This document shows, piece after piece, positions 7,753 through 35,542 of a DNA stretch of 38,329 nt. Positions within the stretch are counted from its first letter, which is position 1. Every line of letters starts with the position of its first letter. The DNA comes from Bacillota bacterium (GTDB lineage: Bacteria; Bacillota; Sulfobacillia; RBS10-35; JAJYVN01). The translations under genes and the position numbers were made by a program. Below the pieces are notes generated by a model. The model was given only the letters and a program-made list of their open reading frames with translations, did not search any database and was not told where the DNA came from. The DNA lies in assembly GCA_021806565.1 (NCBI GenBank), contig JAJZXK010000026.1, forward strand, positions 1-38,329, in the 5' to 3' direction.

Positions 7753-9183
7753 TCACCCTTTGGCGCGCGACGCCGCCGCACCTGCCGCGGCCTGGGCGGC
7801 GCCGCGCTGCAGGCTGTCGGCGGCGCGGGTGGCGGTCGCGAAGCTGGCCGCGACCGACCCCTGAGGCTGGACGAGCAGCCGCCGGAGCGCCGTCGCGATC
7901 GCCTCGCGCGTCAGGGCGTCGGCATGGGCGAAACGCTCGCCCCCCGGCGGCAGCGCCTGCACCCCGGACGGCAGGGCGAACGCATCCAGGTGCTTTCCGG
8001 CCAGGGCCGGGACCGCGGCGCGCAGTTGCGTCAGCCACACGTTCCAAAGGCCCAGCACGCCCGGGGGACGCAGGGCCGCGGTCGCCATGGACTGTTGCCA
8101 GGCCGACCGCGTGCATAGCCAGCGCACCAGCGCCCATGCGGCGCCGGTTTGCCGGCTGCGCGCGCTGACGCCGAAGGCTCGGATCCCGGTGGAGGTGTAG
8201 CGGCCGGCCGGCCAGCGCGGCAGCGGAACAAAGTCCCATTGCAGGTGGGTCCAGGCGGCCGCGAAGCGGACGGCGTCGCCCGCCGAAGCCGTCGGCGCGA
8301 CCTGCAGTCCGGCGGCGAACGACTGCCGGGCGGCCCGCCCGGGCTGGGCGGCACCGCTACGCAGCAGTCCGTAGACGAACCGGCCCGCCGCGAGGGCACC
8401 CGCGCTGCCCAGACCGCAGCGCTGCGGGTCGGCCGGGTCGACGAGCGCGCCGCCGAATCCCTGGAGATAACAGGCCGCCGGGATGCCGGCCGCAAAGAGG
8501 ATCGTCGTCCCGAAGCGGTGCTTGCCGCCGCCGACCGCAGCGGCGGCGCGGGCCGCCAACTGGGCGTAAGCCCGCCAGTCCCAGTCCGCGGCCGGGGCGG
8601 AGAGCCGCAGCGTGCGCAACAGCCCGAGGTTCACGGCGACGGCTGCCGTATCCAGGCCGCTGGGCAGGGCGAACAACCCGGCGGGCGTCGCCAGGGCCGC
8701 CAGTTGACCGGCGCAGAGCCCACTCAGATCCACCCGCTCCGCCTGCACATAGCCCTGCAGGTCGGCGAGCAGCCCGGCCGAAAGCCAGGATTCCAGGGCG
8801 CCGCCGCCGGCGCGCAACGCGACCACGTCCGGCCCCTTGCCCGACCGCACCGCCGCGAGCGCGTCGGCACGGCCCGGGTCGATCTCCAGGCGTATACCCC
8901 GGTTGGACGCCAGAAACGGGGCCGCCGCCGCCAGGGCCCGCTGCACCAGCGAACCCGACGCCGTTCCCGCGCCCCCGCCGAAGGGCTGCCAGCGCAGCAC
9001 CGTCACAGGGGCCGACGCTGCTGGCCTGGAGCGGGAAGCGACCTGAACGCGCACGCCGGAACCGATGCGCCCGCAGGCCGTGATGCCCGCCGCGCCGCCG
9101 GCCACCGCCGCGAGCACGGCCCGGCGGCGCAGCGCGGGAGACGGTCGATCCGCGCCCAGAAGTCCCACCGTTCCTCTCTTCAT
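7753..9183 (-). CDS. Extracellular solute-binding protein family 1-like Tat/lipobox lipoprotein, paralogue 1
   Basis: Signal ALRRRAVLAAVAGGAAGITACG; WDFVPLPRWPAGRYTSTGIRAFGVSARSRQTGAAWALVRWLC aligns with the three other binding proteins in the window. Confidence 0.82.
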   Translation of the reverse strand: MKRGTVGLLGADRPSPALRRRAVLAAVAGGAAGITACGRIGSGVRVQVASRSRPAASAPVTVLRWQPFGGGAGTASGSLVQRALAAAAPFLASNRGIRLEIDPGRADALAAVRSGKGPDVVALRAGGGALESWLSAGLLADLQGYVQAERVDLSGLCAGQLAALATPAGLFALPSGLDTAAVAVNLGLLRTLRLSAPAADWDWRAYAQLAARAAAAVGGGKHRFGTTILFAAGIPAACYLQGFGGALVDPADPQRCGLGSAGALAAGRFVYGLLRSGAAQPGRAARQSFAAGLQVAPTASAGDAVRFAAAWTHLQWDFVPLPRWPAGRYTSTGIRAFGVSARSRQTGAAWALVRWLCTRSAWQQSMATAALRPPGVLGLWNVWLTQLRAAVPALAGKHLDAFALPSGVQALPPGGERFAHADALTREAIATALRRLLVQPQGSVAASFATATRAADSLQRGAAQAAAGAAASRAKG

Positions 9184-9653
9184 AGCCTTTTGTTTCCGGC
9201 CGCTGGCGCGGTCAGTTTCCTGCTTGGAGATTCCTGCTTCGTTGCGGCTGGTTTCGCCAGGCCGTTCTTCTGGCCAGAGCCCTCCGCTCCACAGGCGTTT
9301 TGTGTCTCCGGGGAACTCCCGGCGACAAGCGCCGCGAGGTTCCGCGCCGCGTTGAGGTCCCGGTCGATCACCACTGCGCACGTCTCGCACCGCAAGACGC
9401 GTTCCGACCGTGGCATGGCATCCTTGGCGGCGCCACAGACCGAGCACGTCTTTGTAAACGGGCAAGAGCGTGGCGCGACCACCAGCCGTGACCCATACCA
9501 AGTGGTCTTGTACGCCAGCATCCGCCGGAACTCGCCCCATCCAGCGTCCGCGATGGACCGCGCCAGCGAGTGGTTGCGGATCATGCCACGCACCGCAAGG
9601 TCCTCGACCACGATGACCGACTTGGTTTTCGTCAGGTAGGTGGTCGCCGCTTT
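9180..9653 (-). pseudogene. TnpB (IS607/IS605-type) C-terminal remnant
   Basis: VIVVEDLAVRGMIRNHSLARSIADAGWGEFRRMLAYKTTWYG, zinc ribbon CSVCG...CETC, VIDRDLNAARNLAAL; N-terminal half including the RuvC-I Asp is absent. Confidence 0.88.
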
Positions 9654-10129
9654 CAGTGCCTTCTCGGCCCGATTTCGGGCCAACCGGCGCCCATACAACT
9701 GTGCGCACATGCTGGTCAACACGTCGATCATGTCTTGCACCACGTCGTCCTTGGTCTCTTGCGGATCGACCACAACAAGGCGTCCGCCCTGGGCGGCACG
9801 CGCAGCCTCGACATGTTCGGCACCAAACCGCATAAGTCGATCTCGATGCTCGACGGCCACCATGGCGACGGAGGGGTCCGCCAGCACCTTCATGAGAGCC
9901 CACCTCCGTTACCGTGCGCACCACGGAGTAGCCTTTGCGCGTCACGAACTCGACGCACACGCACACGCGCATAGACCGCCACCCCGGTTGGCTCCTCCTT
10001 CGGGGGCTTCAAGATGATGGTGCCTGTGGGCAACTGCTCTGCTGGCACAGGCAATTTGCCATCGCGATACATTCGCCACGCGGCGTGGTAGCTGATGCCT
10101 TGCTCCTTCGCCCGTGCGCTCTGTTTCAT
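9654..10129 (-). pseudogene. IS607-family serine recombinase TnpA, frameshifted and deleted
   Basis: Three frames carry pieces: SYHAAWRMYRDGKLPVPAEQLPTGTIIL...VAVYARV, EFVTRKGYSVVRTVTEVGS, and MKVLADPSVAMVAVEHRDRLMRFG...DDVVQDMIDVLTSMCAQLYGRRLARNRAEKAL; segment after YARV with the catalytic Ser is missing. Confidence 0.88.
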
Positions 10130-20978: not shown

Positions 20979-22817
20979 TCAGGTCGCGGCCGCCGCCGCC
21001 GACACCTTGCGCGCGACCAAGTAGAGCAGGCGGGACCGCAGCCGCCGGGCTTGGGGCGGCAGGGGACCGTCGTCGGCCGGCCCCACCGCCGGCTGAGCCC
21101 GCCGTCCGCGAAAGGGCACACCTGGGATTCCCGCCTGACCGAGTCGGCGCAACACTTCGAGCGCGGCCGCCACCGTCTCCACGGGCTCCATCGCCTGGGA
21201 GCGGACCTCGGCGCGCTCCACCTCCAGGCCGGCGGCGGAGACCAGCGCGCGCACCCGCGACTCCGTGGCGACCCGATCCGAGTCGCGCAGCGCCTCCGGC
21301 GACCCGCCCAGCCGCGGCCACAGCCCGCGCCAAGCGTCAGGCCACACAAACGGCAGGACGGCGCTGAATGCGACCCGGCCACCGGAGCGGACCAGCCGGG
21401 CCATCTCGGCAAGCGCCCGGCCCGGGTCGGCCCGGTGCAGGAACAGCCCGCCGACGACAAGGTCCGCCGTACCAGAGGCCAGGGGCAGGTCCTCGGCGGC
21501 AGACTGCAGGTAGCGTATCCAGGCATGACCGCGCGTCGTCGCGTGGCGCTGGCCGGCCTGTAGGCGGGACTCCACCGGGTCGGTCACCAGGAGTTGACCA
21601 CGAGGGCCGATGGCGGCAGCCAAACCGCCGTCGATCGTGAGGCGGCCATCGCCGGCTCCCACCTCGACCACCGCGCCGCCGGATGGCGGCGCAACGAAGG
21701 CGACAAAACTGCGCGCTTCGGCCACCGCGGCGTCGCCACCCCCACAGAGCAACTCTACCAAGCCACGGCTCCGCCGCAGGAAACCGCCGCGTTCGATGTC
21801 GTGCTCCAGCAACCGCTGGCCGGCTCGGGTCAAGACCAGCCTGCCGCCGCTGGCGGCCCGGAACAGTACGCCCTTGCGCTCGTACAGGGCGTCGTCGGCC
21901 GCGCGCAACGCGGGCTCCAGCCCTCCGGGATCAAAGGGTGCCACGCCCCACGACATCCCCGGGGCCAGAGGCAGAGTTTCGCGCCCACGCCGGAGCAGTT
22001 CCGCCTCCGCCTGCCTGACCAACCCCTCGGCGGACGGCGCATCCGCCGCCAGCACCAGGAACTCGTCGCCGCCATAGCGGACGGCGAGGCTGCCGGCCGG
22101 CAGGAGTTCGCGCAGAACCTCCCCCATGAGCGACAGGGCCTGGTCCCCCGCCAGATGACCGTAAAGGTCGTTGAGCCCCTTCAGGTCGTCCAGGTCGAGG
22201 AAGGCGACCGCCCCGCCCGTTCGCTCCCAGCGGCCGCGCACCCGTTCATACCAGGCCCGATTGCCCAGGCCGGTCACCGGATCGCTCCACACCCATGCGG
22301 CGGAAGCCCCGTCCGAGTGCGGCCATTCGTTCATCACCACGCTCAGCAGGAAATGCGGCGGGTCCGCCGCTGCCAGGGTTGCCAGCGACGTCACCCGCAG
22401 CGACAGGGGGCGGTCCCCTGTGCCCGTGTCGCAGACGGTGCACGGAACAATCCCGTCGGACGCGGCGGCCGTGTGCCACCATGCCGTGTTGTCGCCCGGG
22501 CCGGAGACCGGCCGGAGTCCGAGCACCTCTAGGGCCGGCCGCCCGCCGGCTTCGAACAGCCGCAGGTCCCAGAACCGCTCCGCGGACGGATTCATCCCCA
22601 CCAGCCTGCCCTGGGCGTCCAGAAGGCAGATCGGTGTGGGCAAACCCTCATAGAGCAGACGAGCAGCCTCATCCGGTCGCAACAGCCGCGGTACGCCGGT
22701 CACCACTGACCAGATCCTTCCCCCCGCGCCTCCGCCCAGCATCTGTATCGCACCCGCGGCGACCTGGCCGCTCTGCCAAACAGACCGCTTTTTCAGACAC
22801 TTGGTCGCTATTTCCAT
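20979..22817 (-). CDS. PAS-GGDEF-class I methyltransferase fusion protein
   Basis: Single open frame: PAS-like GLPTPICLLDAQGRLVGMNPSAERFWDLR; GGDEF domain DPVTGLGNRAWYE...AFLDLDDLKGLNDLYGHLAGDQAL...VRYGGDEFLVLA; then VVEVGAGDGRLTIDGGLAAAIGPRGQLLVTDPV...DLPLASGTADLVVGGLFLH...LVRSGGRVAFS. Confidence 0.85.
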   Translation of the reverse strand: MEIATKCLKKRSVWQSGQVAAGAIQMLGGGAGGRIWSVVTGVPRLLRPDEAARLLYEGLPTPICLLDAQGRLVGMNPSAERFWDLRLFEAGGRPALEVLGLRPVSGPGDNTAWWHTAAASDGIVPCTVCDTGTGDRPLSLRVTSLATLAAADPPHFLLSVVMNEWPHSDGASAAWVWSDPVTGLGNRAWYERVRGRWERTGGAVAFLDLDDLKGLNDLYGHLAGDQALSLMGEVLRELLPAGSLAVRYGGDEFLVLAADAPSAEGLVRQAEAELLRRGRETLPLAPGMSWGVAPFDPGGLEPALRAADDALYERKGVLFRAASGGRLVLTRAGQRLLEHDIERGGFLRRSRGLVELLCGGGDAAVAEARSFVAFVAPPSGGAVVEVGAGDGRLTIDGGLAAAIGPRGQLLVTDPVESRLQAGQRHATTRGHAWIRYLQSAAEDLPLASGTADLVVGGLFLHRADPGRALAEMARLVRSGGRVAFSAVLPFVWPDAWRGLWPRLGGSPEALRDSDRVATESRVRALVSAAGLEVERAEVRSQAMEPVETVAAALEVLRRLGQAGIPGVPFRGRRAQPAVGPADDGPLPPQARRLRSRLLYLVARKVSAAAAAT

Positions 22818-26014: not shown

Positions 26015-26494
26015 TCAATGGGCCACCCCAAGCACGACCCGCACCGCCTCCGCCCGATCCGTGGCGCGGATGATCCCCCGCAGCCAAGCCGTCAACCGCT
26101 CCGCGTCCCTCTCCGTCCCCACCTCCTGCCGGACCGGCTCAGGCACTGCGTCGAATCGAACGGCGAACGCTTCGAGCACATCTGCCCGCCGCCCTTCGAT
26201 TCGACCCTCCGCCCGTCCCATGTCCTTCAGGTCGTCGAACAGGTTCGGGGTGATCGCCATCTCAGCCAACACCTCCATCACTCGCCTCCGCTCCGCGGGC
26301 GACGCCCGAAAGTATGCCAAGGCCAGCATCGCGTTCAGAATAACCTCTCTCAATGCGGGTTCCAACGGCTCCAACAACGGCACTGTCGCCACGATCAACT
26401 CGGGCATCGGCCGACGCACGCGCATCAAGGGTATGAGGGCCAACCGCACCGCGTCCGCAGGCGAGGCACGCCCGCCGGAGCACTCATCCAACAA
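26015..26494 (-). pseudogene. C-terminal part of an Rpn-family (PD-(D/E)XK) recombination-promoting nuclease/putative transposase
   Basis: LALIPLMRV...LREVILNAMLALAYFRASPAERRRVMEVL...AEGRIEGRRADVLEAFAVRF; upstream frame closed by TAA at about 26550, no nuclease domain. Confidence 0.55.
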
Positions 26495-27204: not shown

Positions 27205-28593
27205 TCAGTCCGCCGCCACGGGGAACGGGTCGGTCTCGTCGCCAACCTCCCGGCGCAGCCGCGTCAGTTCGGCCTTCAACTCGGCCACCACGCCCGCATA
27301 CTGCGGATCGTGGTAGACGTTGTGCAGTTCACGCGGGTCCCGCTCCAGATCGAACAACTCCCATTCCGGCGGCGCGGGCTCCTTTTCGTAGTAGTAGATG
27401 AGCTTGTGGCGTTCGGTGCGCACGCCGTAGTGCGCATACACGTTGTGGTGCGCAACGTGCATGAAGTAGCGGTAATACATGGATCGCTGCCACTGCGCCG
27501 TCGCCTCGCCGCGCAGGATGGGCCGCAGGCTCTGGCCCTGCATGCGTTCGGGGGCGTCGAGCCCCGCGTAGTCCAGCAGCGTCTGTGCGAAGTCGACGTT
27601 GAGGGCAAAGCGGGACTCGGTGCGTCCCTGGGGGATCTCCCGCGGGTAGCGCACCAGCATCGGCATGCGCAGCGACTCCTCGTAGAAGAAACGCTTGTCA
27701 TACCAGCCGTGGTCGCCCAGGAAGAAGCCCTGGTCGGACGAGTAGATGACGATGGTGTCCTCGGCCAGCCCCTCCGCGTCGAGGTAGTCCAGCAACCTGC
27801 CGACACCCTCGTCCACAGCCGCGACGCAACGCAGGTAGTCCTTGATGTAGCGCTGATACATCCACCGCCGCCGTTCCGGCAGGGAGAGGCCTTCGGGGGC
27901 CGGGGCCTTGACGTCCTTCGGCCCCAGGTCGCGGTCGACCCGCATCCGCGCGGCTGCGGCGGCCGCCGCCCGATCGGAGTAGTCGTCGTCCAAGGTGTCG
28001 GGCAGGGGCACGTCCCCGTCGGCGAAGAGTTCGGCGTGCCTGGGAGCCGGCTCCCAGGGTCGGTGCGGCGCCTTGTGGTGGCACATCAGCAGGAAGGGGC
28101 GCTCGCGGTCGCGCCGCTGCAGCCAGTCCAACGACTGATCGGTGATGATGTCGGTCACGTAGCCGGGATACACGCGCTCGGTGCCCATCTCGATCATTTT
28201 CGGGTCGTGGTAGAGCCCCTGGCCCGGAAGGACGTTCCAGTAGTCGAACCCGGTCGGATCGTGGATGCCGCCGTGGCCCAGGTGCCACTTCCCGACGATC
28301 GCCGTCTGGTAGCCCGCCCGCTGCAGCAGTTGCGGGAAGGTCGGTTGACGGCCGTCCATGCGTTCGTTGAGCGTCTGCACCTCGTTGACGTGGCTGTACG
28401 TGCCGGTCAGGATCGTGGCCCGGCTGGGGGCGCAGATCGAGTTCGTACAAAAGCAGTTGTCCAGCCGCACCCCGCCGGCCGCGATCCGGTCCAGATTCGG
28501 GGTGCGGTTGATGCGGCTACCGTAGCATCCGATCGCATGCGCCGCGTGGTCGTCGCTGAGGATAAACACGATATTCGGTCGGGTCCCCGCCAT
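27205..28593 (-). CDS. Sulfatase (formylglycine-type)
   Basis: RPNIVFILSDDHAAHAIGCYG; FGly motif CAPSRATILTG; ETAIVGKWHLG-type motif (QTAIVGKWHLGHGG). Confidence 0.96.
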   Translation of the reverse strand: MAGTRPNIVFILSDDHAAHAIGCYGSRINRTPNLDRIAAGGVRLDNCFCTNSICAPSRATILTGTYSHVNEVQTLNERMDGRQPTFPQLLQRAGYQTAIVGKWHLGHGGIHDPTGFDYWNVLPGQGLYHDPKMIEMGTERVYPGYVTDIITDQSLDWLQRRDRERPFLLMCHHKAPHRPWEPAPRHAELFADGDVPLPDTLDDDYSDRAAAAAAARMRVDRDLGPKDVKAPAPEGLSLPERRRWMYQRYIKDYLRCVAAVDEGVGRLLDYLDAEGLAEDTIVIYSSDQGFFLGDHGWYDKRFFYEESLRMPMLVRYPREIPQGRTESRFALNVDFAQTLLDYAGLDAPERMQGQSLRPILRGEATAQWQRSMYYRYFMHVAHHNVYAHYGVRTERHKLIYYYEKEPAPPEWELFDLERDPRELHNVYHDPQYAGVVAELKAELTRLRREVGDETDPFPVAAD

Positions 28594-28734
28594 CGATCCT
28601 GCCTCCACTCCATACGCCGGGGAGCTCGCGCGCCAACGCGCCCCGGCTCTATACTCCGGCCTTCGCCCCCAACGACCCCTGTCCTGCGCCGCCAGGCCGG
28701 ACAAGGCGCCAACCGCGCGGCTTGGGCGCACCGC

Positions 28735-31464
28735 TCATCCCTTCGGGCGCGTCAGCCGGATGCGGCGCACCGCCAACCCGGCGCCGCCGCTCAAGCGGAA
28801 GTCCGCGCGGTTGTTCTGGCGGCCGGTGAAGTCCGCATTGGAAAGCGTCCAGGTGACGGTCTTCCAGCCGCCGCCACCGGTGAGCGTCACGCTCGGACCC
28901 GCCGAGGTGTAGGCGCCGGCCAGGCCGGCCGCGGGGCTGTTGTAAGACGCGTGCAGCATCCCCCCGGCCGGGGCGTCCCAGTACGTGACCGACAACTCCA
29001 GCGCCCGCGGATACGACCAGCCGGGCACGTTGGCGACGAAGTAGAGGTAGCTCGAGGGGTTGGTCGGCGAGGGCCGGTTGCGGTCGAACACCACCGCCGG
29101 TTTGCCCCCGATGGAAGCGAGGTGGAAGTTGCTATCACCCAGATGGGCGCCGACCTGGCGCAACTCCATGCCCGAGGCCTTCCCGTCCAGCGCCAGGGAC
29201 ACCGACTGCGGATCGGTCGCCGGCAACCGCAGATGGGCGGAGAAGCTGGATGGCGCGACCGTGGGCTTGGCCGGCAACGCCGCCCCCGCCGGACGGCGGT
29301 TGTATTGGATGGCCCCGTCCACCAACGCCAGGGAGGCCTTGGCCGCCGCCGTGCAGCGCACGTAGACCAGTTCGGAAGGCAGAAGCGGCGACCAGTCGAC
29401 CGCAAGGCGCGCCACCGTCCCCCAGGCGCCGCCCACCGTCCCAGCCGGCCGCCAGCTCTTGCCGTCCGTGCCGACCTCCACGTCGCCGCTGCCGGTGAAA
29501 AGCAACTCCGCACCGGCCTGATGGCAGCCCTCCACGTTGAAGGCGTACGTCCAGCGGCGGCCGTCGCTCGCCTGCCGCAACTGCAGCGGCTGGCCGTCCC
29601 GCAGGTAGGCACCGCCGGACGAACCGGAGCCGGCGTCCCCCGCCAGCGCCAGATAGTAGCGGTCACGCGCGCCCCACCGCGCCGGCGTGCCGACGGGCGA
29701 AGTCCGGGCCATCCCCCGTTTCCAGGCTGTCCGGGCCAGGTCGACCAACTGGCCGGGAAGCACGAACCGCACCCCGGGCGGGTACTTGGCCCCGACCACC
29801 CGCATAACGTCCGCGTAGGTCTCGCCGTTGCCCAGACCGACCGTCAGAAACAGCGGCCGCACGCTGGTGGACGCCGCCAAGCGCTCGACGGCCGAAACGG
29901 CCTGCTCGGCCCCCGTCGCGCCGGCCCCGCCGTAGCCGCCGATCGGCAGGACCGGCCTGGAGTTCACCCATAGCGGCTCGGCCGGATAGGTACCGCCCTG
30001 GATATAGCCAAGGACGAAGCCGTCGGCGGCCTCACCCCCGTGCAGCAGGTCCCATAAACCCAGGGCCTGCGGGGTATGGACGCCGCCCTCATGTGGCAGG
30101 GCCTGGCCGAGGCGGAGGCCGGCGGAACGCATGGCCGACTGTGCCGACGCCACATAGGCCTTCCAGTGTGGTGTACCCACGAAGGACGGCAGGTCCGGAT
30201 ACCCGAAGGGCAACCAGGCGACCAGTTCGTCGTTGGGCGTGGCCGAATCAAAGTAGTGCCGCGCGATACCGGGCGTCCACCCGGGGGCCATGCCCTGCAT
30301 CGACCATCCCACGGGCACCTTGCCCCGGGCCGGGTCCAGCCAGCGCCCCTCGTGGAAGTCGATCAGCACCGAGATGTTGTCCCCATCGGTGACGACGACG
30401 GAGACATAGATCCCGTTCGGATCGAGGGCGGGTGCCGCCGCGCGCGGGCGCTGTGCGGGGGCCGGCGTGGCCGGCATGGCGGTATGCACACTGAGGTTCT
30501 CCGCCGACAGCCCCGGTGTGTCGGCCCCAACGAAGTTGACGCCGTGGCTGCTGCAAAAGATCGTCTGCTTCGCCTCGTTGTTCGTCCAGCCGAAGGCCGT
30601 GAACCGCTTGGCCGCCACCCGCCGCAGCACACCGGCCAGCACCCCGCCATGGCTGCCGGTCGCGATCTGGTTCATGTCCCCGATCCACGTGAAGGCCCGG
30701 GTCACCACGGCATAGTCGCGCGGCGTCCAGCGCAGCACCCTCTCGGTGCCATCGCCCGGCATGTCGCCCACGGAAATGAAGGCGAGCGCCCCTGGCGCCT
30801 GCTTACCAAGCTGCTTCCAGGCGTAGCGATAGGCGGCCGTGGCGTCGCGTAGCCCGACCTTGCGCAGGTCCAGGAGCGATTTCCATCCGCTGCCCGCCAG
30901 GTCGATCCCGCCCGCGGCCACAGCCGCGAGGCCGACCAGGGCGGACTGCGCGTCCGACGGGTCGACGGCAGCCGCCCCGTGCACCCAGGCCAGGGTGTTG
31001 GCGACGTTGATCGTCGCCGGCAGCGCCGGGTCCCAGACGATGTACTGGTCGACGCCGAGCCGCTTGGCCAGCGCGAACGCATCGGCCGGCGTCCCCTTGC
31101 GCACCCCGAGGTGGTAGCGGCTGCGATAGACCTCCAACCAGCGCGCGTCCGAGCCCTGAAAGGCCACACCACCCACGTAGTTGGACGGCAGGAGCACATA
31201 CAGTCCCTCTCCGCCATGGCGCACGCGGCGGTTGACCAGCCCCTGCAGGATGGCGACGGCCACCTGCGTATGCAGGGCGACTCCCTGCAGATCGACCACA
31301 AGTACCGACCCGGGCATCGCCGCCGGGGCTGGCAGCCAACCCTGCGTCCGGCCGGCCGCGACCGGCCCCAGCCCCCCGCATCCCGTGAGCCAGGGAAGGG
31401 CCCCGAGTAGCGGTAACGCACCCATCCCCCGCAGTACCGTCCGCCGCGCGACTCCCACGCGCAT
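28735..31464 (-). CDS. GxGYxYP-like Tat/lipobox lipoprotein, putative glycan-related (start could be 31485)
   Basis: Signal VARRTVLRGMGALPLLGALPWLTGC; VSVVVTDGDNISVLIDFHEGRWLDPARGKVPVGWSMQGMAPGW and DELVAWLPFGYPDLPSF resemble the GxGYxYP family core. Confidence 0.7.
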   Translation of the reverse strand: MRVGVARRTVLRGMGALPLLGALPWLTGCGGLGPVAAGRTQGWLPAPAAMPGSVLVVDLQGVALHTQVAVAILQGLVNRRVRHGGEGLYVLLPSNYVGGVAFQGSDARWLEVYRSRYHLGVRKGTPADAFALAKRLGVDQYIVWDPALPATINVANTLAWVHGAAAVDPSDAQSALVGLAAVAAGGIDLAGSGWKSLLDLRKVGLRDATAAYRYAWKQLGKQAPGALAFISVGDMPGDGTERVLRWTPRDYAVVTRAFTWIGDMNQIATGSHGGVLAGVLRRVAAKRFTAFGWTNNEAKQTIFCSSHGVNFVGADTPGLSAENLSVHTAMPATPAPAQRPRAAAPALDPNGIYVSVVVTDGDNISVLIDFHEGRWLDPARGKVPVGWSMQGMAPGWTPGIARHYFDSATPNDELVAWLPFGYPDLPSFVGTPHWKAYVASAQSAMRSAGLRLGQALPHEGGVHTPQALGLWDLLHGGEAADGFVLGYIQGGTYPAEPLWVNSRPVLPIGGYGGAGATGAEQAVSAVERLAASTSVRPLFLTVGLGNGETYADVMRVVGAKYPPGVRFVLPGQLVDLARTAWKRGMARTSPVGTPARWGARDRYYLALAGDAGSGSSGGAYLRDGQPLQLRQASDGRRWTYAFNVEGCHQAGAELLFTGSGDVEVGTDGKSWRPAGTVGGAWGTVARLAVDWSPLLPSELVYVRCTAAAKASLALVDGAIQYNRRPAGAALPAKPTVAPSSFSAHLRLPATDPQSVSLALDGKASGMELRQVGAHLGDSNFHLASIGGKPAVVFDRNRPSPTNPSSYLYFVANVPGWSYPRALELSVTYWDAPAGGMLHASYNSPAAGLAGAYTSAGPSVTLTGGGGWKTVTWTLSNADFTGRQNNRADFRLSGGAGLAVRRIRLTRPKG

Positions 31465-31670
31465 CCCCCCAGGTGGACCGTACATGCGCTCATGTGGGGC
31501 TCATTTCCTGCCAACCGCCGTCCAAACGAGCGGCAGGCCGCCGCCGCGGGCCGGGTGCGGGCCGCGATGGAGTCCCGGAGGGACCGCCCCAGGCGCAGGT
31601 GGGGACCGGGCCCGCCGAGACGGGCCGCCTGTGCGCGCACAGATGCGACACCACCGCGGCCGGCGCGGTT

Positions 31671-32954
31671 TCAGTCCTCCGGCTGCGTCGTCGCGCCGCG
31701 CGCCACGTCCACCTCCCAGTTCGAGATGGCCGCCCGCAGGCGCGCCGCCCGGGCCGGTTCCCGCGCGGCCAGGTCGTCGCCCTCGGCCAGATCGTGTTCA
31801 AGGTCGAAGAGGGCGGGTGGGGCGCCGTCCCGCAGCAGCAGCTTCCAGGGGCCCTCCCGGACGGCGCGGTCGCGGCCGTGTCCCCAGAAGATCTGCCGCG
31901 GCGCGAGCGCACCCGTCCCGAACAGCAGGGGGCACAAGTCCACCCCGTCGAGCGGACGGGGCGGCGCTCCCGCCCCCGCAAGGGCGAGGAAGGTCGGCAA
32001 CAGATCGAGGCAGACGGTCGGAACGTTGCAGCGCGACCCGGCGGGGATCCGTCCCGGCCAGCGGGCCATGGCCGGGATGCGGTGGCCGCCCTCCCAGAGG
32101 GTGCCCTTGCCGCCCCGCAGTTTGCCGTTGGAACCGACCCGCGTCGCCCCGTTGTCCGAAAAGAAGAAGACCAGCGTACGCTCCTCCAGCCCGAGCCGCG
32201 CCAAAGCGGCCAGGACCTCCCCCACCCCCGCGTCCATGGCTTCGGTCATCTCGCGATAGGCGCCGACCCGATCCTGCCGTTCGGGGTGTCGCCGCCCGTC
32301 CGCCATGCGCACCGGACCGTCGCCGGGACCCTGGTAGGGCGAGTGGACCGCCTCGTGCGCCACATAGAGACAGAAGGGTTCGTGCGCATGCGCCTCGATG
32401 AAGCCGACCGCATGGCGGGTGATCAATTGGGTCGTGTAGCCCTCCTCGGGCACCAGGCGGTCGCCGTCCCACCAATCGGGGAAACCGGCGCCGTCCACGT
32501 GGCTGAAGTAGTCGACGTTGCCGCTGACGTAGCCACGAAAGGAGTCGAAGCCGTGGCGGACGGGGTTGTAACGGGGATCATAGCCCAGGTGCCACTTGCC
32601 GCAGATCCCCGTCGCGTACCCCGCGTCGCGCAGCAGGCCGGCAAGGGTGGCCTCCCCCGGTTGCAGGCCGTGGTGGCGCAGGCCCGCGCCGGGATCGGCA
32701 AGGATCACGCCCGGGATGCCGGCGCGTTGCTGGTACCGCCCGGTGAGCAGCCCCGCCCGGGTGGGACTGCAGACCGCACCGCTGGAATGAAAATCATCGA
32801 AGCGCAGGCCGCCGGCGGCAAGGGCGTCCAGATGGGGCGTGCGCACCTGCGGATGGCCGTAACACGCCAAATCCCCGTAACCGAGGTCGTCGGCCAGAAC
32901 GATCACGAAGTTCGGCAGGGACCGGGGCGAAGACGCCGCCCCATGTGCGGGCAT
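31671..32954 (-). CDS. Sulfatase (formylglycine-type arylsulfatase-like)
   Basis: LPNFVIVLADDLGYGDLACYGHP; FGly motif CSPTRAGLLTGRY; TGICGKWHLGYDPRYNPVRHGFDSFRGY. Confidence 0.96.
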   Translation of the reverse strand: MPAHGAASSPRSLPNFVIVLADDLGYGDLACYGHPQVRTPHLDALAAGGLRFDDFHSSGAVCSPTRAGLLTGRYQQRAGIPGVILADPGAGLRHHGLQPGEATLAGLLRDAGYATGICGKWHLGYDPRYNPVRHGFDSFRGYVSGNVDYFSHVDGAGFPDWWDGDRLVPEEGYTTQLITRHAVGFIEAHAHEPFCLYVAHEAVHSPYQGPGDGPVRMADGRRHPERQDRVGAYREMTEAMDAGVGEVLAALARLGLEERTLVFFFSDNGATRVGSNGKLRGGKGTLWEGGHRIPAMARWPGRIPAGSRCNVPTVCLDLLPTFLALAGAGAPPRPLDGVDLCPLLFGTGALAPRQIFWGHGRDRAVREGPWKLLLRDGAPPALFDLEHDLAEGDDLAAREPARAARLRAAISNWEVDVARGATTQPED

Positions 32955-33124
32955 CGGGCCGTGCCCCCTTCCGGCCTGATATCGATCGCTTCTGCCTTCT
33001 GGCCCGCACGACCACGTCCTGCCGCCGCCGCACCGCTTCGCAGGGATGTCGGGGGAGCGGACCGGCCTTCCTGAACCATCGGTGATCACCCGGTGCGATC
33101 GGAACCGGAAGGTCGGCACACGGA

Positions 33125-33739
33125 TCACAGGCGGGAGCGCTCAGGGGTGAGCACCGCGGCAAACCGCGCCAGGCGGCCCCCCAGGTACCGCGCCGCCTCC
33201 AGGACCTCGGGCGCGACCGCGACGCCCTCGCGCGCAGCCTGGTAGCTCACGCCGTAGGGATTGCCGCCCGCGGCATAGACCACCCGGTCGGTGTAGCCCG
33301 GCGCGACGATCACCGTGCCCCAGTGGTACATGACGTTGTGGATCGTGTGCAGCGTCGTCTCCTGGCCGCCGTGCGGGTTGGCCGCGCCGGTGAAGGCCGC
33401 GGCCGGCTTGTTGGCCATGACGCCCCTGCCCCAGAGCCCGCCGAGTCCGTCGAAGAACAGCTTGAGCGCAGCGGCCATCACCCCGAACCGGGTCGGTGAA
33501 CCGAACGCGTAGCCATCTGCCCATTCCACGTCCTCCGGCGCCGCCAGGGGCACCCCGGCCGCCTCCGCCACGTGGGCCTTCCAGCCCGGATTGGCGGCGA
33601 CGACCGCTTCGGGTGCCAACTCCGCCACCCGCCGCAGCCGGGTCTGCGCGCCGGCCGCGCGCGCACCCTCCTCGACTGCCTGGGCCACGCGGTAGGTGTG
33701 TCCGGTAGCGCTGTAGTAAATCACCGCGAGCTTTGCCAT
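33125..33739 (-). CDS. wrbA: NAD(P)H:quinone oxidoreductase, WrbA flavodoxin-like family
   Basis: KLAVIYYSATGHTYRVAQAVEEGA; YAFGSPTRFGVMAAALKLFFDGLGGLWGRG; NPHGGQETTLHTIHNVMYHWG. Confidence 0.93.
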   Translation of the reverse strand: MAKLAVIYYSATGHTYRVAQAVEEGARAAGAQTRLRRVAELAPEAVVAANPGWKAHVAEAAGVPLAAPEDVEWADGYAFGSPTRFGVMAAALKLFFDGLGGLWGRGVMANKPAAAFTGAANPHGGQETTLHTIHNVMYHWGTVIVAPGYTDRVVYAAGGNPYGVSYQAAREGVAVAPEVLEAARYLGGRLARFAAVLTPERSRL

Positions 33740-33838
33740 CCGGTATCCCCCCCACTCCGCGACCGACCGCCGACGAGCGGCCGGTCCACCCCTGCACCCC
33801 GCACAGGCTCTCCCAACCGCTGGCTCCGCACCCGCCGC

Positions 33839-35305
33839 CTATTCCCCGTGGTAAAGGCCGCCGAAATAGGTCCGCCAGCCCGCGGGCGCCGGATGGGCGT
33901 CGGTCACGCGATACGCGGCGGGAAAGGCATCGCGGCCCTCTGAGCGCAACCACGCCGTCAGGGAGGGGTCGAGGCCGCGGCGGACGATTTCGTCCACGGC
34001 CGCGCGATGCAGGCGGACCACCGTCTCGGGATGGTCCGCGGCAACGTCGACCTTCTCCCCCAGGCGCCTCAGCGCGCAGCGCCCCGGATCGGCGGCTACG
34101 GCCAGGGCCCATTCCCGGTCGAAGGCCGAAAACAGGATGCCGCCGGCGCGCTGCTTCCAGGTGCTCACCGCGGTGCCGCACAGGGCGATCTCCCGCTTGG
34201 CGTGGTCTTCGCGCGCCGTGGCCAAAAGGTCGTGGGATTCGAGATCCTGCGGCGCCTGCCCACCGGCCAAGCCCAGCAGGGTCGCAAAGATGTCCTGCGA
34301 CTGCACGAGCGCGCTGCTCGTGCCGGACCCGGCCCCCGGCACGTGGACCAGTAGCGGGACGTGCGCCTCATTTTCCAACGGGGGTGCGGCCTTGCCGAAA
34401 GGGGAATCCGGGCGGTCTCCGACGTTGGTCCCGTGATCCCCGAGCAGCACCACCGCGGTCCGTTCCGCCAGACCCGTTTGCTCGAGCGTGTCCAGAAAGG
34501 TGCCGAGCCAGCGGTCCATGAACGTCACCTTGGCGGCGTATTGCGCCCTGAGGTTCAGGAGCGCCCGCGGTGAAAGGTCCGGCCGGTTGCGGCCCCCCGA
34601 GAAGGATCGCGGGTCCAGCATGCCGTCGTACCCGGGCGTACGATCGTACAAGCGCACATACTCGGGCGGCGAGTCCCAGGGCTCGTGGGGATCGAAGCAA
34701 TCGACCCAGAGAAAGAACCGGTCGCGGCTCGCGTTGTCGCGCAGGAACCGCGACGCCGTCGTGAACAGGCGGGCGACGTTCCAATCCTCTTCCCGCACCC
34801 GCCCGCGGTTGGTCGGCACATACCCCGCCCCGGGATTCCAGCCGCGCCGCAGGACGCGCTCGTCGTCACGCGGCAGGGGGTCGAACATCGGATCCAGGCG
34901 CCAGTTGGGCAGATAGGACCAGTCGTCGGTGATCCAGGCGCGGTCCACCTCCGCCCCCCGCACCTGCGTCCAGGCGTGGAAGGGGAAATCGAAACCGTGC
35001 CCGCCGTTGACCAGGTGAGGCGTGTCATGGATCAACTGGGTGCAATAGCCATGTTCGGCCAGGGCGCGGGGCAGGGTCGGCCGGTCGCAGTCCAGCGGCT
35101 TCCACGGGTGGAACGGCGCGCCGTACCGCCCTGTGATCAGATCCGTGCGTAGCGGGATGGTCGGAAAGCTGCCGGCGAAGGCCCGCCGGAAGTTCCACGA
35201 GCGGGCCGCCAACCGGTCCAGGTTGGGCGTTTGCACCTCCTGGTTGCCGTTGGCTCCGAGGTGATCGAAGCGCAACGTGTCGATGACGATCAGCACGATG
35301 TTCAC
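33839..35305 (-). CDS. Sulfatase-like alkaline phosphatase superfamily protein with Thr at the formylglycine position
   Basis: VNIVLIVIDTLRFDHLGANGN; FPTIPLRTDLITGRYG aligned to CxPxR; FFLWVDCFDPHEPWDSP; VVLLGDHGTNVGDR; GTG start after AGGGGGG. Confidence 0.9.
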   Translation of the reverse strand: MNIVLIVIDTLRFDHLGANGNQEVQTPNLDRLAARSWNFRRAFAGSFPTIPLRTDLITGRYGAPFHPWKPLDCDRPTLPRALAEHGYCTQLIHDTPHLVNGGHGFDFPFHAWTQVRGAEVDRAWITDDWSYLPNWRLDPMFDPLPRDDERVLRRGWNPGAGYVPTNRGRVREEDWNVARLFTTASRFLRDNASRDRFFLWVDCFDPHEPWDSPPEYVRLYDRTPGYDGMLDPRSFSGGRNRPDLSPRALLNLRAQYAAKVTFMDRWLGTFLDTLEQTGLAERTAVVLLGDHGTNVGDRPDSPFGKAAPPLENEAHVPLLVHVPGAGSGTSSALVQSQDIFATLLGLAGGQAPQDLESHDLLATAREDHAKREIALCGTAVSTWKQRAGGILFSAFDREWALAVAADPGRCALRRLGEKVDVAADHPETVVRLHRAAVDEIVRRGLDPSLTAWLRSEGRDAFPAAYRVTDAHPAPAGWRTYFGGLYHGE

Positions 35306-35542
35306 GAAGGACGCCCCCCCTGTTCCGCCCAGGCCGGCCAGCGGCCGGGCGCGCTGGTGGCGCGGGGACCGCGCCGCCATGACCGCCTTCGGTGGTCGCG
35401 GCGGCGCCCCTGCCTGCCTGCGTGCGTGGATTGACCGTGTGGGTCGAGGCTGGGCGGCACCACGCGGGGCGGTGCGCGCCCGGGCCGCTGGGATGTGCGC
35501 TGCCGGCCGGGCACCGCCGTCTCGGGGTCGCCCGCAGCAACC

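Follow-up and report, generated by a model that had tools for sequence, protein, structure and literature searches.

Organization of the Fusion Gene

The window, i.e., the whole stretch of 38,329 nucleotides that was analyzed, carries on its minus strand one open frame in which a weak PAS segment, an intact GGDEF domain, a linker and a class I SAM methyltransferase (MTase) follow each other (Table 1). The first-pass annotation had placed this frame correctly at 20979–22817 without stating its strand; the start, however, is likely to be GTG 22706 rather than ATG 22817. With the stop codon at 20979–20981, ATG 22817 would yield a protein of 612 aa, and GTG 22706 one of 575 aa. The latter is the better candidate because of the Shine-Dalgarno-like GGGGGGAAGGA 8 nt upstream, the coding score, and the relatives, most of whose alignments begin at about residue 42 or beyond (612-aa numbering, used throughout). 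The first ~37 residues from ATG 22817 are without counterpart in relatives. As had been annotated, no obvious transmembrane stretch was seen on inspection of the sequence.

Table 1. Features of the PAS-GGDEF-MTase gene in the window.
Feature	Position	Strand	Basis
Whole fusion gene	20979..22706	-	Open frame, coding score, GGGGGGAAGGA before GTG, alignment of relatives
PAS-like sensor segment, ~residues 46–159	22341..22682	-	Pfam just below cut-off; 5xgb profile match
GGDEF (diguanylate cyclase) domain, residues 178–315	21873..22286	-	Pfam and motifs
Linker between GGDEF and MTase, residues 316–365	21723..21872	-	Comparison by eye
Class I SAM MTase core, residues 366–500 (VVEVGAGDG, LLVTDP, AAEDLP)	21318..21722	-	Pfam, motifs, profile match
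Variable C-terminal part of the MTase, presumed to bind the acceptor	20982..21317	-	Identity among copies; function inferred

The fusion gene is preceded on its 5' side by a divergent gene for a Gfo/Idh oxidoreductase and then one for a solute-binding protein, and is followed on the same strand by a DinB_2 gene and a DltD-like gene. Elsewhere in the window, an ORF with a Cas12f1-like TNB domain (9183–9893, minus strand) probably encodes a TnpB-type transposon protein. A 159-aa ORF without Pfam match (26018–26494, minus strand) resembles by eye Rpn-type transposase-like proteins in their C-terminal part. Three sulfatase genes clustered with a gene for a GxGYxYP glycoside hydrolase (27208–35380, minus strand) suggest the use of sulfated glycans.

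Canonical Cyclase Residues and Absence of the Primary Inhibitory Site

The GGDEF domain (PF00990) was matched with 73.4 bits at a cut-off of 23.8 (E = 2.4e-20). The roles of the catalytic residues, including D344 of PleD, have been described (PMC7288161); equivalents of D327, N335 and D344 are present in the window copy (FLDLDDLKGLND, GHLAGD), RYGGDEF is intact, and the metal and guanine residues as well as the GGDEF motif are kept in nearly all copies. Since the D344 equivalent is an aspartate, canonical c-di-GMP rather than a Hypr product is to be expected. A Hypr (cGAMP-making) GGDEF domain was ruled out on the same ground, namely Asp instead of Ser in GHLAGD. At the RxxD position, the window copy reads PAGS, and thus the primary I-site is absent. 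RxxD is missing from all fusions of the main clade, and two fusions from genome G028 (family f21) carry REND and RAGD. Given its canonical catalytic residues and the missing primary I-site, the GGDEF domain is predicted to make c-di-GMP without RxxD feedback inhibition, in agreement with the loss of product inhibition proposed previously.

The PAS matches remained just under the Pfam cut-offs (PAS_4 with 21.0 bits vs. 23.1, PAS with 19.9 vs. 22.6; E = 4e-4 to 8e-4). Among PDB entries, the family profile matched best to the PAS-GGDEF part of PA0861 (5xgb), at positions 12–279. As in PA0861 and other PAS-GGDEF(-EAL) cyclases, PAS precedes GGDEF; in contrast to these, the fusion adds a SAM MTase after the GGDEF domain, and its main clade is without RxxD. 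Matches in PHROGs covered the GGDEF part only. AlphaFold2 models built from two sequences only reached moderate confidence for PAS and GGDEF (pLDDT ~43–84 by block) and less than 50 for the MTase.

The MTase Domain Resembles Small-Molecule Methyltransferases

Methyltransf_11 matched residues 385–484 with 47 bits (cut-off 21.2; E = 4.1e-12), and VVEVGAGDG conforms to motif I (ExGxGxG). RYGGDEF, VVEVGAGDG, LLVTDP and the replacement of RxxD by PAGS had all been annotated, and all were found. Motif I and post-I are kept in most copies. In profile searches, 3bus was among the closest solved MTases, as were LahSB and a sterol methyltransferase. The SAM core and its motifs are common to the fusion and to the small-molecule class I methyltransferases 3bus, YcgJ and UbiE-like (PF01209); unlike the fusion, none of these is joined to a GGDEF domain, and the scores were far below the equivalog cut-offs. 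A UbiE/menaquinone enzyme was rejected (33.7 bits vs. a cut-off of 378; NF001240), as was a CheR chemotaxis methyltransferase, since no CheR family was among the Pfam matches at E ≤ 0.1. By sequence, the MTase resembles small-molecule methyltransferases, none of which is close enough to name the acceptor; most likely, the acceptor would be a small molecule differing between copies.

A relative of the fusion MTase also occurs behind an N-terminal region of ~250 residues that is unannotated and often contains VVMDTWLAG or similar (L069, L071, L072, L074, L075, L080, L081, L103, L105, L106 and L108). In the scanned loci with this region, the MTase was the sole Pfam match, and L071 adjoins an OmpR-type winged-helix gene. 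GRLVLTRAGQ in the linker of the fusion resembles by eye the LTxxGR stretch preceding the MTase of non-GGDEF relatives.

The Fusion Is a Multi-Copy Family of One Bacterial Class

The host genome (4.0 Mb) contains ten GGDEF matches, and five of these ten proteins have the fusion architecture (contigs C180, which is that of the window, C142, C96, C117 and C208). Five other genera of the family, represented by genomes G001 to G005, harbor about 1, 9, 2, 2 and 4 full copies, respectively, in addition to partial ones; JAJZZC010000262.1 (Bacillota MAG) belongs to one of these genomes, and L039 and L047 are identical. When a profile from 24 fusions was searched against 154 genomes of the class, with the best eight candidates per genome scored, collinear fusions were found in at least 18 genomes from four families (f1, f11, f21 and f46). 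G098 has one further fusion, divided into two abutting frames. In a phylum sample of 399 genomes with the best three candidates each, only the genome of the window matched at E ≤ 1e-60, and the plasmid collection held no record covering 80% of the query. Outside the host, 30 or more homologues keep the same domain order in one open frame.

The host assembly is a draft in 213 contigs, which could speak for a merge of two adjacent genes through sequencing or assembly error. The five open fused copies in the host and the same-order fusions in at least 17 other genomes make such a merge extremely improbable, and it was rejected in view of these independent copies. Thus, the GGDEF-MTase chain in one uninterrupted frame, as first annotated, is borne out both by Pfam and by the independent copies, and the fusion is a multi-copy protein family spanning four families of one bacterial class and no one-off.

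Conservation, Selection and Phylogeny

Among the copies of family f1, mean identity was 32% for PAS, 51% for GGDEF, 41% for the linker, 60% for the MTase core and 31% for the MTase C-terminus. The SAM-binding core of the MTase is therefore the best-conserved part of the protein, with the greatest variation in PAS and the MTase C-terminus. This pattern suggests that both the input and the acceptor vary around a pair of conserved catalytic cores. The window copy is diverged and without close relative, with 31% identity to other copies in the linker and 20% in the MTase C-terminus. In 12 pairs of related copies, dN/dS was mostly 0.1–0.4 in both GGDEF and MTase core, rough values since dS was near saturation in several pairs. 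Both cores are under purifying selection in related copies.

In the MTase-domain tree, 35 of 37 fusions formed one group (100/98). Nested inside it were L067 and L068, stand-alone MTases without PAS-GGDEF, near which no PAS-GGDEF remnants were found; L067 pairs as sister with L059, in which the GGDEF domain is already degenerate. The two G028 fusions grouped with MTases bearing a different N-terminal region. In the PAS-GGDEF tree, one branch had all 37 fusions to the same side of it (97/83; recovered in 97% of bootstrap trees). The fusion may have arisen once and been lost later in some copies, as far as the limited sample of non-fused sequences goes.

Among L048 to L050, all from genome G002, L050 resembles L048 in its PAS-GGDEF part (80–86%) and L049 in its MTase core (90%), which suggests either that paralogues recombined or that the assembly is chimeric here.

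Genomic Setting and the c-di-GMP Network

The host genome has two PilZ, seven EAL and five HD-GYP matches. PilZ, HD-GYP and EAL proteins are carried by the host and its relatives, with G028 being without EAL, and their presence makes c-di-GMP signalling plausible. No gene neighbor is common to the fusion copies, hence no pathway is indicated. Genes of a single HD-GYP subfamily adjoin a fusion in two genera, convergent with it at a distance of ~80–100 bp; the hydrophobic N-terminal half of their products looks membrane-bound. By a rough post hoc count, ~0.08 copies beside HD-GYP would be expected (P about 0.003), and the two adjoining HD-GYP proteins, being 46% identical to each other, may not be independent.

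A phage-type integrase gene is divergent to two related copies from different genera (L042 3951–5144, called by Pfam, and L060 6757–7962, called as a homologue), which hints that some copies are mobile.

Proposed Function and Independent Decay of Both Ends

The reading that we put forward, and to which we give about an even chance of being right, is that of a soluble PAS-controlled bifunctional enzyme that combines c-di-GMP synthesis with methylation, so that one signal has two outputs. First, the PAS segment would sense a signal differing from copy to copy. Second, the GGDEF dimer would convert GTP to c-di-GMP without feedback through the RxxD site. Third, the C-terminal MTase would methylate its copy-specific acceptor, and a single sensory input would thereby be passed on as both second messenger and methylation by the same protein. 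In favor of this reading, in which both enzymatic functions, the ligand of the PAS segment, the acceptor and any coupling are inferred, stand several lines of evidence: the retained GGDEF catalytic residues and MTase motifs with purifying selection on both; c-di-GMP proteins in the host, EAL on the same chain in L095, L098 and L099, and HD-GYP beside two copies; the independent decay of GGDEF and MTase; and the nearest solved MTases together with the variability of PAS and the MTase C-terminus. Points against it are the lack of conserved neighborhoods, PAS scores under the Pfam cut-offs, the degenerate copies, and the diverged linker and MTase C-terminus of a window copy without close relative.

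The degenerate copies fall on both sides. A broken GGDEF motif with an intact MTase was found in three copies: L045 (EGNVF; host, C208), L055 (GDDEL) and L059 (GADEL), the last with a truncated EAL reading frame directly upstream. These copies favor a GGDEF domain that mainly regulates the MTase, with GTP binding, dimerization or c-di-GMP binding switching methyl transfer and cyclase activity being minor. The MTase core as the most conserved part is in line with this, and Caulobacter CC3396 offers a precedent, its degenerate GGDEF domain being a GTP sensor for the neighboring EAL domain (PMC7288161). A pure sensor, however, needs no catalytic residues, yet most copies keep all of them; four EAL-PAS-GGDEF-MTase proteins keep GGDEF and lose MTase motif I; and the nested L067 and L068 have no GGDEF domain to be regulated by. 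We regard a mainly regulatory GGDEF domain as the main alternative, though a rather unlikely one.

The four proteins just mentioned, L097–L100, have VEVNAGRG-like letters in place of VEVGAGxG and thus lost motif I, with GGDEF intact. By Pfam, the f11 loci L095, L098 and L099 are EAL-GGDEF-MTase, with a weak PAS in between for L095 and L099; by sequence, L097 and the contig-cut L100 look like the other f11 EAL fusions. L057 likewise combines a broken motif I with an intact GGDEF, and the MTase of L064 is apparently frame-broken. The broken motifs I of L097–L100 and L057 would fit an MTase-like domain that is no enzyme and controls the cyclase as a sensor of SAM or a metabolite. However, most copies have kept motif I, purifying selection acts on the SAM core, two nested relatives consist of the MTase alone, and an N-terminal region of quite another kind precedes the same module elsewhere, which together render a mere sensor improbable.

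Either end can thus decay alone. The degenerate copies imply that some members cannot be bifunctional, and their independent decay argues that each end has a value of its own, with gating in intact copies still compatible. Two separable outputs explain this independent loss no less well than strict coupling does. Of the initial interpretation, the fusion, the GGDEF domain and the class I SAM MTase stand, and c-di-GMP-linked methylation or a GGDEF domain serving the MTase as GTP sensor remain suggestions. That the MTase methylates the very nucleotide which its own GGDEF domain makes or binds, yielding a methylated cyclic dinucleotide as second messenger, is highly improbable.

Comparison with Known Systems

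The customary view is that GGDEF proteins work via c-di-GMP and separate receptors. In CC3396, as in the fusion, a GGDEF domain is joined to another catalytic domain that it could in principle regulate; the partner in the fusion is a methyltransferase, and its GGDEF domain is mostly intact. MapZ-CheR1 also ties c-di-GMP to a SAM methyltransferase, the c-di-GMP-bound PilZ adaptor inhibiting the methyltransferase in trans (PMC7288161, PMC12564702), but it consists of two proteins and involves a CheR chemotaxis methyltransferase, whereas the fusion has no CheR match. A GGDEF domain joined to this kind of methyltransferase was not found in full-text searches of a library of 5.39 million open papers. 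The architecture is provisionally regarded as apparently undescribed.

Half of the GGDEF proteins of one genome bear their own MTase, and the arrangement is kept across genera with either end separately lost. The copies offer a natural series in which to test whether a single sensor drives both a second messenger and methylation, and they also suit testing whether GGDEF domains gate enzymes other than EAL. If the coupling is real, c-di-GMP or GTP signalling would gain a new and direct output.
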